64,000 nt of DNA, taken from the NCBI GenBank assembly GCA_002356455.1, contig AP017968.1, forward strand, positions 1,240,001-1,304,000, written 5' to 3'. Positions within the stretch are counted from its first letter, which is position 1, and each line of letters starts with the position of its first letter. Shown one piece after another: positions 3,180 through 13,043 of the stretch. The position numbers were made by a program, and so were the translations under genes. The stretch comes from Fusobacterium varium. Its GTDB lineage: Bacteria > Fusobacteriota > Fusobacteriia > Fusobacteriales > Fusobacteriaceae. A model generated the notes under the pieces. That model saw only the letters and a program-made list of their open reading frames with translations. It did not search any database and was not told where the DNA came from.

Positions 3180-3318
3180 ATATATTTTATTAAAAATATA
3201 CTTTAATTGGAACTATTTATAAAAAATGTATGTTATATTTATAATTTTTATTATTAAATTGTATTTTTAATTAGAATGACTTAAATTATAATATATTCAG
3301 TATATATCTTTAAATAAA

Positions 3319-3353
3319 AAAAGAGAGTCTGAAAAGTCTCAGATCTCTCTTTT
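3319..3353 (-). terminator. Intrinsic terminator after the P-type ATPase gene
   Basis: Arms AAAAGAGAG (3319-3327) and CTCTCTTTT (3345-3353) have an inner TCTGA/TCAGA pairing, giving a long hairpin that ends in T on the minus strand, 20 bases past the ATPase stop codon. Confidence 0.85.
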
Positions 3354-3373: not shown

Positions 3374-5968
3374 TTATTTTTTATATTTAATAAACTTAGA
3401 TATTTGAATAATTAAAGTTGGAATGAATGCTAATCCATATATGTATAATAAATCATTAATATCTAAAGGTGCTACTTGGAATATAGAATGGAAAACAGGG
3501 AAAATAAGTATTCCATTTAATAATATAAATCCTATAACGAAAGCTGCTATAGAAAACATGTTAGAAAATAATCCTAATCCTATTATAGAACTTCCACCTC
3601 TGCAGTTAAATCCATGGAATAGTCTAGCTAAGCATAGAACACTGAAAGCCATTGTACTTCCTTTTAAAGTATTTCCATCTTGGTATCCAATGTAGAAAGC
3701 AAGCATTACAAACACAGCAATTAATAAACCTTCAATAAGAATCTTTCCAGCAAGTTCTTTTGTAAGAATAGGTTCTTTTGGATCACGAGGTTTTTCAGTA
3801 AGTACATCTCCATGTGAAGGTTCCATTCCAATAGCAATAGCTGGCAAGCTGTCAGTCAACAGATTAATAAACAGCAGGTGTACTGGAGCAAAAATCACTG
3901 GAAGACCTGCAAGAGATGAATAAAGCACAGCAAGAATACCAGCAGTATTACCTGAAAGTAAAAATCTTATAGAATTTTTAATATTTGAATAAATATTTCT
4001 ACCAGTAGTTACAGCCTTTACTATTGTAGAGAAATTATCATCAGTAAGTATCATAGAAGCTGCATCCTTTGAAACTTCAGTTCCTGTAATACCCATAGCA
4101 ATACCTATATCAGCTCTTTTTAATGCTGGAGCATCGTTAACTCCATCACCAGTCATAGCACATATTTTACCTAGTGTCTGCCATGCAGTAACTATTCTTA
4201 TTTTGTGTTCAGGAGAAACTCTCGCATAAACAGAAGTAGAAGAAACTTTATTGATAAGTTCTTCATCACTCATTTTTTCAACTTCAATACCTTCAAGTAC
4301 ATTATCTCCATCTTGGTAAATTCCTATTTCTTTAGCAATAGTTGTAGCAGTAATTTTATGATCTCCTGTTATCATTACAGGTTTTATTCCAGCTGTAATA
4401 CATTTTTCAACAGCTGCTTTAGATTCTTCTCTAGGAGGATCAATCATTCCAACAAGACCAATAAATATAAATTTATCCTCATCTTCTCTGGTAATTTCTT
4501 TTCTTTCATCTAATACTTTATAGGCAAAAGTAAGAACTCTTAGACCAGTTTCAGCAAACATAGTGTTGATATTTTCAATGTTTTCAATATCAGATTTAGT
4601 AATTTCTCTTACTTCATTATGAACAAGAATATGAGTAGTTTTTGGAAGAACTGAGTCTAAAGCTCCTTTAGTAAGCATTAGTATCTCATTGTCAATTTCA
4701 TGAACTGTACTCATAAGTTTCCTGTCTGAATCGAATGGAATTTCAGAAATACGAGGATATTTTTCTTTTAATTCCTTACTGTTTATTTTATAATTTATTT
4801 CAGAAAGATTTATTAAAGCAATCTCTGTAGGATCACCTATTTCACTTGTAGCATCATTACAAAGAATACTTTCTTTTAAAATAAGAGATTCACCAGTATC
4901 TTTTATATCCAATCCTTTTTCATTGTATACTTTATTGTTGATATACACTTGTTTTACAGTCATTTTATTTTGTGTAAGCGTTCCAGTCTTATCAGAACAT
5001 ATTACAGAAACACAACCAAGAGATTCAACAGATTTAAGATTTTTTATGATAGCATTTTCTTTTGATAACTTTTGGGTACCAAGAGCAAGAACAATTGTAA
5101 CAATAGAACTTAGAGCTTCTGGTATAGCAGCAACTGCCAAAGCAACAGCAAACATAAGTGAATCAAGCATTTTTACACCATGGAATACATTTATTGCAAA
5201 TACAATTATACAAAGTATGATTATTCCAATTGAAAGTTTTTTACCAAAGTTATCAAGAGATACTTGAAGTGGAGTTGATTTTTCCTTTGTAGCTTCTAAA
5301 AGAGAAGCGATTTTTCCAAGTTCAGTATTCATTCCTGTAGAAGTAACTATGACAATACCTCTTCCATAACTTACCAGAGTTCCAGAAAAGACCATATTTT
5401 TTTGATCACCAAGAGCGAGTTCGCCATCAGCCATTATATTACTGATTTTTTCTACACTTTCTGATTCTCCAGTAAGAGAACTTTCATTTACAAGAAGGGA
5501 GAAACTTTCAATGATTCTTCCGTCTGCTGGAACTAAATCTCCTGCTTCAATAAAGACGATATCTCCAGGCACTAGATATTTAGATAATATTTCTACCTTT
5601 TCTCCATCTCTCAAAACTTTTGACTTTGGAGCCGATAAACTTTTCAAACTGCTTATAGATTCTTCAGCTTTTAAATGCTGCACTGTTCCAAGTATAGCAT
5701 TGATAATAATAACAACTAAAATAACAATAGTACTTTCTTCATTACCTGAAATAAGAGAAATAATAGAAGCTATAATAAGAATGATAACTAAAAAATCTTT
5801 GAACTGAGAAATAAATACAGTAAAAGTACTTAGTTTCTTTTCTTCATTAAGCTGATTATACCCGTATTTTTCGATAGAAGTTTCTACCTGACCAGTTGTA
5901 AGTCCCTTTTCATTTGAATTGAACTCTTTTAAGATTTCATCTTTCGATTTAGAAAAATAATTTTTCAT
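3374..5968 (-). CDS. P2A-type cation ATPase, probably Mn2+ (or Ca2+/Mn2+) export
   Basis: 864 residues, typical for bacterial P2A pumps. An N-terminal cation-ATPase domain is followed by the TGES actuator loop (166-169), helix 4 motif PEAL (283-286, where Ca2+ pumps usually have PEGL), the phosphorylation site SDKTGTLT (Asp326), MITGDH, and the hinge GDGVNDAPAL. About ten membrane helices are visible, the last six after the hinge. By family it is a Ca2+-type pump. However, a yybP-ykoY manganese riboswitch with its own promoter precedes it, and that RNA class is known to control Mn2+ exporters, including P-type ATPases. I therefore infer Mn2+ efflux as a main role. The ATG at 5968 has GGAGG (tatggaggtatc) upstream. 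It stands alone between its riboswitch and terminator. Confidence 0.9.
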   Translation of the reverse strand: MKNYFSKSKDEILKEFNSNEKGLTTGQVETSIEKYGYNQLNEEKKLSTFTVFISQFKDFLVIILIIASIISLISGNEESTIVILVVIIINAILGTVQHLKAEESISSLKSLSAPKSKVLRDGEKVEILSKYLVPGDIVFIEAGDLVPADGRIIESFSLLVNESSLTGESESVEKISNIMADGELALGDQKNMVFSGTLVSYGRGIVIVTSTGMNTELGKIASLLEATKEKSTPLQVSLDNFGKKLSIGIIILCIIVFAINVFHGVKMLDSLMFAVALAVAAIPEALSSIVTIVLALGTQKLSKENAIIKNLKSVESLGCVSVICSDKTGTLTQNKMTVKQVYINNKVYNEKGLDIKDTGESLILKESILCNDATSEIGDPTEIALINLSEINYKINSKELKEKYPRISEIPFDSDRKLMSTVHEIDNEILMLTKGALDSVLPKTTHILVHNEVREITKSDIENIENINTMFAETGLRVLTFAYKVLDERKEITREDEDKFIFIGLVGMIDPPREESKAAVEKCITAGIKPVMITGDHKITATTIAKEIGIYQDGDNVLEGIEVEKMSDEELINKVSSTSVYARVSPEHKIRIVTAWQTLGKICAMTGDGVNDAPALKRADIGIAMGITGTEVSKDAASMILTDDNFSTIVKAVTTGRNIYSNIKNSIRFLLSGNTAGILAVLYSSLAGLPVIFAPVHLLFINLLTDSLPAIAIGMEPSHGDVLTEKPRDPKEPILTKELAGKILIEGLLIAVFVMLAFYIGYQDGNTLKGSTMAFSVLCLARLFHGFNCRGGSSIIGLGLFSNMFSIAAFVIGFILLNGILIFPVFHSIFQVAPLDINDLLYIYGLAFIPTLIIQISKFIKYKK

Positions 5969-6031
5969 GATACCTCCATAAGACTATATAATAATATTCC
6001 TTAAATTATTATCAATTCCTGTTTTTTTCAT

Positions 6032-6090
6032 AAAAAAAAGACTTCCAATACAGAGAATTGATAATCAATAACCTCTGTATTAAAAGTCTT
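6032..6090 (-). terminator. Riboswitch-controlled intrinsic terminator
   Basis: A long imperfect hairpin (arms 6038-6055 and 6073-6090, core AATACAGAG/CTCTGTATT) is followed by eight T on the minus strand (6032-6039). Its 5' arm overlaps the 3' strand of aptamer helix P1, the usual design of a riboswitch acting by transcription termination. Confidence 0.85.
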
Positions 6091-6180
6091 GTTACCTTCA
6101 AGATAGGTATATAGTACCAGATAGTCTCATAGACTTCGTGATGTTGATACTATAATTTTCAACTACTCCCTTTTAATACT
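6032..6180 (-). promoter_or_regulatory. yybP-ykoY (Mn2+) riboswitch with terminator expression platform
   Basis: Read on the minus strand, a GGGAGUAG element follows an A-rich P1 5' strand (6170-6180). Next come AUCAACAUCACGA, CUGGUAC, UGAAGGUAAC and the P1 3' strand (6077-6086). This is the layout of the yybP-ykoY aptamer, which binds Mn2+. P1 pairs 6170-6180 with 6077-6086. The P1 3' strand also forms the start of a terminator hairpin (6038-6090), so the two folds exclude each other. Mn2+ binding is expected to prevent termination and switch on the downstream ATPase gene. The aptamer begins just after the predicted transcription start. Confidence 0.85.
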
Positions 6181-6189
6181 TATATACAA

Positions 6190-6218
6190 ATCATATACTA
6201 AAAAAATACTTTTGTCAA
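6190..6218 (-). promoter_or_regulatory. Promoter of the Mn2+ riboswitch/ATPase transcript
   Basis: A perfect -35 TTGACA (6213-6218) and a -10 TATGAT (6190-6195) are separated by 17 bp on the minus strand. The start is expected near 6183, a few bases before aptamer helix P1. It lies directly after the pyrE stop codon, so the ATPase has its own promoter separate from the pyr operon. Confidence 0.8.
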
Positions 6219-6236: not shown

Positions 6237-6860
6237 TTATCTTCCCCAAGTATCAGTATTTTTATTCCATGATGAAGCTATTTCTGCTTCTTCTTCAGTA
6301 AGATATTTTTCTTCTCTAGCTAATTCAAGAAGAGCAGAGAAGTTTGATAATGATTCCCAAGGGATATTATTATCAGCAAAATTTTTAAAAGCTTTATCAA
6401 ACTCATAAGAGAATATAGAAACAACTTCAACAGAAGCAGCTCCTTCACTTCTTGCAGCTTCCACAGCTTTAATAGAACTTCCTCCAGTAGAAATAAGATC
6501 TTCAATAACTATTACTTTTTTACCAGCAAAGTCAGCACCTTCAATTTGTCTTCCAGCACCATGTGCTTTCTTTTCTCCTCTGATATAACTCATAGGTTTA
6601 TTCATTTCCCAAGCTATAAATGCAGCCCAAGGAATACCAGCAGTAGCAGTACCAGCTACTACATCAAAATCTTTTTCAGATAATTTTTTTACAAATTCAT
6701 CAACTACTACTTTTCTTTCAGCAGGATATCCAATCATTTTTCTATTGTCACAGTATATAGGGCTTTTAATACCTGATACAAATGTGAAAGGTTCTTTTAC
6801 ATTTAGTTTTACTGCTCCTGTTTTTAATAATGATTTAGCTACTTCTTTTGCTCTACTCAT
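6237..6860 (-). CDS. pyrE: Orotate phosphoribosyltransferase
   Basis: 207 residues. It converts orotate and PRPP to orotidine 5'-phosphate, the fifth step of de novo UMP synthesis, in the cytoplasm. The PRPP-binding motif VIVIEDLISTGGSS occupies about 116-129, and the flexible-loop motif RGEKKAHGAGRQIEG about 94-108. It is the last gene of the pyr operon, and its start overlaps the end of pyrC by 8 bases, suggesting translational coupling. No separate terminator is seen after it; the riboswitch terminator downstream could stop readthrough. Confidence 0.95.
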   Translation of the reverse strand: MSRAKEVAKSLLKTGAVKLNVKEPFTFVSGIKSPIYCDNRKMIGYPAERKVVVDEFVKKLSEKDFDVVAGTATAGIPWAAFIAWEMNKPMSYIRGEKKAHGAGRQIEGADFAGKKVIVIEDLISTGGSSIKAVEAARSEGAASVEVVSIFSYEFDKAFKNFADNNIPWESLSNFSALLELAREEKYLTEEEAEIASSWNKNTDTWGR

Positions 6861-11909: not shown

Positions 11910-12884
11910 TTATTTTTTTAAAATTTCTATTAACTCTGATTTATACTTATCAAGATTTTTAACAAGATCTTTTACCTGTTCATCACTAAGTTTTACAGTT
12001 TTTTCAGTAACAGGAACAAATTTGAATTCTTCAGTAAGAGAAGTTTCAATAACTGGAAACATATAATTTTTTTTAGGAACTAGATTTTGAAAATCTTCAT
12101 TGAGAATATATTCCATAAATTTTTTAGCTCCTTCTTTTGTTTCTTTTTTATTTACTAAAGATGCACCTTCTAAATACATAAAAGTTCCATCCTCTAAAAG
12201 AAAGCTGCTGAATCTGCTTTGTTCTTCATCCTGTGAAAAGAAAAGATTGCTTGTAGCATATCCAACCATCATAGGAGCTTCTCCAGCAGTAAACTTAGCA
12301 AATGCTTCACTCCAACCTGGTTCAGCAGTATATATGGCAGGCTTTAAAATATTCCAGAAATTTTTCCAGTTTTTTCCATATAAAGCTATGCTCCATAAAA
12401 GAGCTTCTTCACCAGTAGAAGAAGTAGCAGGATTTTCAACTAAAAGCTGTTTTTCTAATTTACCAAGTTCTGCCAGATTTTTTGGAGGAACAGGGATTTT
12501 TTTTGTATCATAATTAATAGCAAGAAGCCCATAGTCAAAAGGAGTTGCATATCCTTCTTTATCCATTATAAAATTACTGCTCTTTATATTGGAAATGTTT
12601 TTAGGAATATAAGGAATAATAAGATTTTCTTTTTTTGCTATCTCAGTACTTAAAGAAGTCAGTCCAATAACAATATCTGCTTTAGGATTTTTTTCTTCAA
12701 GTTTCAGTCTTGATACAAGACCATCAATAGATATGAATTTAATATCTACTCCAGTTTTTTCTTTAAATATTGGGGCAAAAGTTTTTCCTATCCACTTTGT
12801 AGAACTAGGGCCGTAAATTACTATTTCTTCTGAAAAAGAAGAAATAGACAGCAGTAAAAATAAAGATAAAATAAATTTTTTCAT
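11910..12884 (-). CDS. thiB: Thiamine ABC transporter substrate-binding protein
   Basis: 324 residues with a cleavable signal peptide (about 1-18, MKKFILSLFLLLSISSFS) and no lipobox, so periplasmic. It has the extracellular solute-binding type 1 fold with the ThiB/TbpA-like ligand motif NPATSSTGEEALLWS and a C-terminal GWSEAFAKFTAGEAPMM segment. It delivers thiamine or its phosphates to an inner-membrane importer. A TPP riboswitch directly upstream confirms the vitamin link. No permease or ATPase gene follows; the pyr promoter does, so the rest of the importer must be encoded elsewhere. The ATG has AGGAGGA upstream. Confidence 0.9.
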   Translation of the reverse strand: MKKFILSLFLLLSISSFSEEIVIYGPSSTKWIGKTFAPIFKEKTGVDIKFISIDGLVSRLKLEEKNPKADIVIGLTSLSTEIAKKENLIIPYIPKNISNIKSSNFIMDKEGYATPFDYGLLAINYDTKKIPVPPKNLAELGKLEKQLLVENPATSSTGEEALLWSIALYGKNWKNFWNILKPAIYTAEPGWSEAFAKFTAGEAPMMVGYATSNLFFSQDEEQSRFSSFLLEDGTFMYLEGASLVNKKETKEGAKKFMEYILNEDFQNLVPKKNYMFPVIETSLTEEFKFVPVTEKTVKLSDEQVKDLVKNLDKYKSELIEILKK

Positions 12885-12913: not shown

Positions 12914-12947
12914 AAAAAAAGCTGTCTGAAATAGATAAATAGACAAC
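12914..12947 (-). terminator. TPP riboswitch terminator
   Basis: On the minus strand GTTGTCT (12941-12947) pairs with AGACAGC (12921-12927), followed by seven T (12914-12920). It lies between the TPP aptamer and the thiB ribosome site, as expected for ligand-induced termination. Confidence 0.85.
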
Positions 12948-12949
12948 TT

Positions 12950-13043
12950 AAAACATTTCCTACGTTGGCATTATCCAAATCAGGTTTAACGGTCGAAATA
13001 AAATTTCCTCTCAGCTTTTTTAGCTCCCGCATGATAATATTTT
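12950..13043 (-). promoter_or_regulatory. TPP riboswitch (THI element)
   Basis: On the minus strand the conserved aptamer parts appear in order: GCGGGAGC, GCTGAGAGG, GACCGTTAAACCTGATTTGG, ATAATGCCAACGTAGGAAA. P1 pairs 13036-13043 with 12950-12957 over 8 bp including one G-U. The aptamer binds thiamine pyrophosphate, and binding should favour the terminator just downstream and shut off thiB. Confidence 0.96.

Follow-up and report, generated by a model that had tools for sequence, protein, structure and literature searches.

What does the leader of an annotated Ca2+-type P-type ATPase in Fusobacterium varium respond to, and which ion does the pump behind it export? The window, that is, the whole stretch of 64,000 nucleotides that was analyzed (contig AP017968.1, positions 1,240,001 to 1,304,000, renumbered here from 1), had been given a sequence-only reading that named a promoter, a yybP-ykoY aptamer, and a terminator in the leader and a PEAL motif in the pump, and suggested an Mn2+ (or mixed) exporter. 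All four elements are present, on the minus strand. The leader is almost certainly an RNA switch of the manganese type, pared down to a form that escapes the Rfam model, and most likely, to judge from sequence and comparison, it would turn on the export of excess manganese, perhaps of calcium too. The locus is laid out as follows.

6237–6860: pyrE-like ORF, directly upstream of the leader, ending 18 nt before the promoter
6213–6218 (−): −35 promoter element TTGACA (from the sequence; a promoter-like pair is conserved across family loci)
6190–6195 (−): −10 promoter element TATGAT, after a 17-nt spacer; predicted transcription start at about 6183
6076–6182 (−): Mn2+ riboswitch aptamer of the yybP-ykoY kind, P2-less (scores of models R1, R2, and R3, described below, and covariation)
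5973–5977 (−): Shine-Dalgarno sequence GGAGG (from sequence reading)
3374–5968 (−): P-type ATPase of 864 amino acids, PMR1/SERCA-like, with site residues E284, N702, D706, and R782
3316–3350 (−): possible terminator 3' of the pump, AGAGAG...CTCTCT plus a T run (from sequence reading), at which a terminator scan gave no call

The promoter, described earlier as a perfect TTGACA promoter, bears inspection: it scores 11 of 12 positions and ranks at the top of 7 promoter-like sites within 1 kb (shuffled mean, 4.7), with 21 such sites over a wider region versus 20.6 in shuffles. Among 30 pump loci of the window's family, a promoter pair matching at least 9 of 12 positions lies no more than 70 nt before GGGAGTA in 29 (shuffles, 40%), and a pair matching at least 10 of 12 does so in 24 (shuffles, 6%); the narrower distance of 10 to 30 nt is kept in just 14 of the 30.

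Anatomy of the aptamer and its terminator

The isolated aptamer (6074 to 6184) folds as P1/P3/P3b/P4 at −23.7 kcal/mol (z = −2.3), with 3 of 200 shuffles equally good.

6170–6179 (−): P1 switch helix, 5' strand, GUAUUAAAAG (folding, covariation)
6161–6169 (−): 5' side of L1 and 5' strand of P1.2, GGAGUA-GUU (alignment); P1.2 pairs with 6091–6093
6155–6160 (−): linker GAAAAU, six nucleotides, replacing helix P2 (the R3 alignment deletes the whole of P2)
6145–6154 (−): P3, 5' strand, pairing with 6110–6119 (covariation)
6138–6144 (−): L3 metal-site loop ACAUCAC (comparison with the X. oryzae loop)
6120–6137 (−): P3b hairpin (folding, covariation)
6110–6119 (−): P3, 3' strand (covariation)
6094–6108 (−): P4 hairpin, ACC...GGU (folding; one-sided changes only)
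6087–6093 (−): 3' side of L1 and 3' strand of P1.2, AAC-AAGA (alignment, covariation)
6077–6086 (−): P1 switch helix, 3' strand, CUUUUAAUAC (folding, covariation), common to the terminator 5' arm
6040–6088 (−): intrinsic terminator hairpin (folding), its 5' arm containing the P1 3' strand
6032–6039 (−): terminator U tract, eight T (sequence)

The yybP-ykoY layout that the sequence-only reading had proposed is thus largely, though not entirely, in place. P1, L1, P1.2, P3 with L3, P3b, and P4 are shared with the class (RF00080; L. lactis yoaB, 4Y1I; X. oryzae, 6N2V), and both L1 (GGGAGUA / AAGAC) and an L3 with the Mn-sensing adenosine were found in the window. In contrast, the classic helix P2, on which P1.2 is described as stacking in solved Mn2+ riboswitch structures, is missing; with a six-nucleotide linker instead, the junction is three-way, not four-way. 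P2 is absent from all 30 family leaders and from many Bacillota leaders, including those of Tetragenococcus (L072) and Halolactibacillus (L065). We do not take its absence as disqualifying, because L065 and L072 combine it with the classic loop and L1, and because a three-way junction has been reported for S. pneumoniae mgtA. Automatic labels were relied on solely for the P2-lessness of the 30 family leaders, L065, and L072, as their UCA/ACA column misassigns leaders that read CGTCAACA, and their 31-nt limit misplaces some P2-bearing leaders (e.g., L013 and L034).

The metal-site loop is ordinary. Mn2+ in the X. oryzae and L. lactis riboswitches is reported to be held by L1 and L3 phosphates together with the N7 of a single invariable adenosine, in L3 loops reading ACA48UACU and UCA41AUUC, respectively (PMC6754395, PMC9190785); in X. 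oryzae this adenosine is the sole base ligand. The window's L3 region, C-A-ACA-UCAC, matches the Mn-bound X. oryzae loop, and A6142 is therefore the equivalent of the Mn-sensing adenosine (A41 in L. lactis, A48 in X. oryzae), which is constant in our alignments A1 (40 of 40 rows), A2 (21 of 21), and A3 (13 of 13). The RF00080 consensus shows the same loop, GUCAACAUAC. An initial reading of UCAACA as an L3 insertion or altered metal site was dropped, since X. oryzae carries the same ACA loop. The unusual feature of this leader is the replacement of P2 by six nucleotides, not the metal loop. Elsewhere, the Gemella cuniculi leader (L048:3790-3887) has GGGATTA, not GGGAGTA, as its L1, a loop that is otherwise nearly fixed.

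P1 and the terminator are mutually exclusive, as the 5' arm of the hairpin uses the P1 3' strand, which the sequence-only reading had recognized and which the window shares with the yybP-ykoY class along with the X. oryzae-type ACA loop. In the leader folded through the U tract the terminator wins (−41.8 kcal/mol, z = −4.1), and the best structure with P1 forced reaches −28.9 kcal/mol; in a growing transcript the lowest energy belongs to the P1 form at the tested lengths of 106 to 135 nt and to the full terminator at 147 and 155 nt. Among the matches listed, 74 of 77 leaders can be folded so that the P1 3' strand forms part of the 5' arm of a hairpin with a run of T behind it. The three exceptions are L106, whose hairpin lies beyond the region examined; L048, which has the hairpin but whose GGGATTA was missed by the search string; and L107. 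From this shared strand we infer an ON switch by anatomy. The mechanism given for the class, in which metal should hold P1 and permit read-through (PMC6754395), and the description of the L. lactis riboswitch as an ON switch (PMC9190785) agree with this direction, contrary to one review, in which Mn2+ riboswitches are termed OFF switches (PMC11477304).

Covariation, kinship with classic leaders, and the Rfam model

A search with the pump returned at least 80 named loci and also hit every one of the 61 genomes of the window's family (Fusobacteriaceae), from which 30 family pump loci were taken; in all 30, GGGAGTA occurs no more than 500 nt before the pump. Alignment A1 holds 40 P2-less leaders, 23 from those family loci and 17 from the named loci among the matches listed, selected by GGGAGTA and a CAACA-type loop (L037 was excluded for its UCA loop). 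Because the leaders were picked by GGGAGUA, the constancy of that string carries no weight, and the letters of the CAACA loop are partly constant by choice as well, but the constancy of the Mn-sensing adenosine is not.

Across the A1 structure, 90.3% of 1202 cells pair, versus 78.4% in shuffles and 34 to 48% with the partner slid, and two-sided changes occur at 20 of 31 pairs in 166 cells (shuffled, 14.8 pairs and 54.4 cells), comparisons to be read knowing that the shuffles ignore relatedness and that the slid control favors a structure drawn from the consensus. The firmest part of this covariation support is the two-sided changes in P3, found in 8 of its 10 pairs, with 98.8% of its cells paired. 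P1.2 pairs in 96.7% of cells and has two-sided changes at one of its three pairs, P1 and P3b pair in 86.3% and 75.7% of cells, respectively, and P4 has one-sided changes only. RNAalifold, unaided, recovers P1, P1.2, and P3.

Covariance models link these leaders to the classic ones. R1, built with the window leader included, scores the window at 99 bits (next match in its own genome, 21), which for that reason proves nothing alone. Two further models exclude the window's family. R2, made from the A2 set of 21 Bacillota leaders without P2 (L037 among them), scores the window at 79.6 bits and all 30 family loci at 69 to 84 bits, the next match reaching 17.4. R3, for which 13 Bacillota leaders with the classic type of loop were used (P2 is absent from L065 and L072 and much reduced in L043), scores it at 53 bits (E = 2.4e-11), the sole match up to an E value of 10 within the 64 kb, with P2 wholly deleted in the alignment. 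The leader is thus homologous to classic leaders in both sequence and structure, and together with covariation in 40 leaders the R2 and R3 scores uphold its assignment to the yybP-ykoY Mn2+ riboswitch kind.

The Rfam model itself, which had been named beforehand as the refuting test, is silent: RF00080 has no match in the window at its gathering score (45 bits) and none at E ≤ 10 in the leader or across the whole genome. This miss is weak evidence, because none of 16 genomes with related leaders, classic ones included, pass the cut-off, and just 2 of 14 control genomes pass it (9 of the 14 give a match at E ≤ 10). Even L072, a leader with the classic L1 and loop on which R3 was trained, scores 28.7 bits (E = 1.3e-6), below the 45-bit cut-off. 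Two P2-less leaders, that of L015 and the pump leader of L004, score 16.7 bits (E = 0.0047) and 18.1 bits (E = 0.011), respectively, and further sub-threshold matches fall on aptamers also found by our own models (L157, 36.4 bits; L162, 30.6; L168, 29); none falls on the pump leaders of three family genomes (G028, G023, and G009). When 12 loci bearing such leaders were searched in full at the gathering score, RF00080 appeared in none, and one of them, the streptococcal locus L077, gave RF02617 (SSRC10). A TPP riboswitch (RF00059, 69.6 bits) was found elsewhere in the window at 12940–13040 (−), before an ORF (11910–12884) that, we presume, resembles an ABC binding protein.

RF02617 is annotated as a Streptococcus small RNA, not a riboswitch, and it has P2 and no P4. 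It matches the streptococcal pump leader (L077:3851-3966) at 81.3 bits, and in S. pyogenes SSRC10 is reported just before a "putative calcium transporter" (PMC3675131); for these two reasons the "sRNA" is very probably a terminated riboswitch. S. pneumoniae mgtA, like the window's pump gene, encodes a type II cation ATPase and lies immediately behind a riboswitch, whose junction, too, is reported as three-way, formed with Ca2+ or Mn2+ (PMC9495176, citing Martin 2019). Unlike the window, the L077 leader keeps P2, has a UCA-type loop, and in the SSRC10 alignment shows no helix between P3 and the terminator; therefore, the streptococcal three-way junction is one without P4 and differs from that of the window, which keeps P4 and lacks P2.

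Coupling of leader and pump across genomes

Leader and pump go together. R1 at E ≤ 0.01 matches 39 of 98 genomes of the phylum, of which 37 belong to the window's family (61 genomes in all) and 2 to a different one. Leader and close pump co-occur in the 37, and neither occurs in the other 24: the leader-bearing genomes are those with a pump of at least 60% identity (36 whole; in G010, two frames of 59 and 72%), and in the remaining 24 the aptamer goes unmatched and pump identity does not exceed 49%. The aptamer and pump matches lie no more than about 350 nt apart in 36 of the 37 genomes and 537 nt apart in G044. In G010 the pump (G010:C25:35490-38079) is split over two frames with an internal stop, and the leader is kept.

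A quick midpoint-rooted tree was made from 101 of 110 pumps (named loci among the matches listed; nine close relatives dropped). Its 21 family rows form one group (SH-aLRT 100) beside Clostridium (90), and both sit inside a 75-row group (SH-aLRT 100) that also holds the streptococcal pump; the Listeria row falls in another (100). The leader label changes 14 times on this tree versus 28 in shuffles, with 0 of 500 as low. Pump and leader have probably traveled together.

Several loci vary this arrangement. In Clostridium senegalense, two tandem aptamer-terminator units (L001:3547-3673 and L001:3819-3923) precede the pump, an arrangement that could make the response sharper. A P2-less aptamer also stands before a P-type ATPase of another sort in two genomes from a different family of the order (L164:527-629 and L165); the L164 ATPase passes the cut-off for PMCA-type Ca2+ ATPases (TIGR01517). 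R3-positive aptamers with a CAACA loop in related genomes precede MntP (L156 and L168) and GDT1/UPF0016 (L151 and L161) genes, and another R3-positive aptamer (L169) precedes an Na/Ca exchanger gene. Other neighbors are less expected: family genome G044 carries a second P2-less aptamer (L163:326-422), also R3-positive, before an M48 (HtpX-like) membrane protease, an unusual target for an Mn2+ switch, and in Thermoanaerobacter wiegelii an aptamer (L162:1501-1618; R3, 66.2 bits) precedes the beta subunit of oxaloacetate decarboxylase (PF03977). The aptamer and terminator of Clostridium paraputrificum L159 (73.2 bits) have no same-strand ORF of at least 70 amino acids starting within 500 nt downstream, and we read this aptamer as a remnant or a free-standing RNA.

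Ligand and transported ion

Manganese riboswitch control of such pumps is already known. C. difficile CD2503 (predicted) and L. lactis YoaB are described in reviews as P-type ATPases placed behind an Mn2+ riboswitch (PMC11477304, PMC9495176), although these come from other lineages and are likened to the window by description, not by sequence. S. pneumoniae MgtA is a further precedent (PMC9331361; also PMC9936198 and PMC9495176) and is reported to export Ca2+ and Mn2+ under extreme Mn2+ toxicity (PMC9936198). The F. varium pump, a type II cation ATPase under an Mn2+-type riboswitch, is a candidate Mn2+ exporter of the MgtA/YoaB kind. What is new is the P2-less form missed by Rfam; among the matches listed in the open-licence literature, we found no description of a yybP-ykoY riboswitch in Fusobacterium or of a P2-less form.

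The pump itself is less telling. Its nearest NCBIfam models are those of PMR1-type (675 bits; cut-off, 798) and SERCA-type Ca2+ ATPases (650 bits; cut-off, 703), and it falls below both cut-offs. The best solved-structure relatives are entries of LMCA1 (lmo0841; 6ZHF), the Listeria Ca2+-ATPase. The sequence-only reading had taken PEAL as a mark of manganese transport; the motif is present, at E284, yet it also occurs in LMCA1, in 26 of 33 relatives that lack the leader, and in 71 of 77 that have it (among the matches listed), and we rejected it as an Mn2+ signature. When a residue signature for Mn2+ was sought in helices 4 and 6, the site residues of the pump proved equal to those reported for LMCA1 (PMC11977196), with E292, N716, D720, and R795 corresponding to E284, N702, D706, and R782; position 720 is Asn in print and Asp in the sequence.

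These residues favor an alternative in which the riboswitch senses Mn2+ but the pump is essentially a Ca2+ exporter, so that Mn2+ control would serve the Ca2+/Mn2+ balance and Mn2+ export would be minor. The S. pneumoniae precedent can be read the same way, its MgtA exporting both ions (PMC9936198) and its riboswitch being said to regulate Ca2+ efflux (PMC9495176). The genome of F. varium also has an MntP gene, before which no aptamer was found, and the pump therefore need not be the main Mn2+ exporter. Against this, the pump is closer to the riboswitch-controlled streptococcal pump (L077, 54% identity) than to the Listeria relative (L068, 47%), which lies in a separate tree group (SH-aLRT 100) and has no such leader within 500 nt. 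We regard a pump devoted essentially to calcium as unlikely, though deserving of serious attention. We also looked for complementarity of the pump with other Mn2+ exporters, and no displacement pattern emerged: MntP occurs in 41 of 61 family genomes, both with and without the pump, and GDT1 above its cut-off in 0 of 61.

A physiological ligand other than Mn2+, whether Ca2+ or another divalent ion, is improbable. The S. pneumoniae mgtA aptamer, with its three-way junction, is reported to bind Ca2+ more tightly than Mn2+ (PMC9495176), which makes the Mn2+ ligand less certain here, where P2 is absent, and Mn2+ riboswitches are described as binding Co2+, Cd2+, and Ni2+ too (PMC11477304). However, Mn2+ activates mgtA transcription more than Ca2+ does (PMC9495176), the window's loop is that of the Mn-bound X. 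oryzae riboswitch, and MntP and GDT1 genes also follow aptamers with this loop. That the leader is an unrelated attenuator, for example of a pyr operon ending 18 nt before the promoter, might be thought from the adjacent pyrE-like ORF and the RF00080 miss, but this is refuted in practice by independent covariance models that find the leader (R2, 79.6 bits; R3, 53 bits). Such a leader is also present in 30 of 30 family loci, while pyrE occurs in 10 of 110 loci within the flanks examined (named loci among the matches listed).

We therefore consider it likely that positions 6032 to 6218 of the minus strand form a transcriptional ON riboswitch of the yybP-ykoY kind with a P2-less three-way junction, through which high Mn2+ (perhaps Ca2+) would lead to synthesis of the pump and export of Mn2+, possibly Ca2+. 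At low metal, the terminator at 6040–6088 would capture the P1 3' strand and transcription would stop. At high cytosolic Mn2+, or perhaps Ca2+, the ion would dock L1 onto L3 via phosphates and N7 of A6142; docking would hold P1, the terminator would be unable to form, and the P-type ATPase would be made and would then export Mn2+, possibly Ca2+ also. Counted against this ON riboswitch are the RF00080 miss, the site residues shared with a Ca2+ pump, the absence of P2 as the stacking partner of P1.2, and the aptamers before an M48 protease (L163) and an oxaloacetate decarboxylase subunit (L162). "Mn2+ (or mixed)" appears to be the right wording for the predicted exporter and for the predicted sensing.

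More broadly, we tentatively suggest that type II cation ATPases in this family and in many Clostridia may have as their standard leader a P2-less (P1/P3/P4) Mn2+ riboswitch missed by Rfam, that it differs from the P4-less streptococcal form, and that sensing may not depend on the P1.2-P2 stack, the preference between Mn2+ and Ca2+ possibly being shifted. With its length of about 105 nt and no P2, the aptamer is well suited to testing which elements of the solved structures are required, and the Ca2+ response reported in the streptococcal case can be compared with it. Where Rfam, at its cut-off, is silent in the genomes tested, these leaders supply a probable Mn2+ (or Mn2+/Ca2+) trigger for annotated Ca2+ ATPases in 37 of the 61 genomes of the family.
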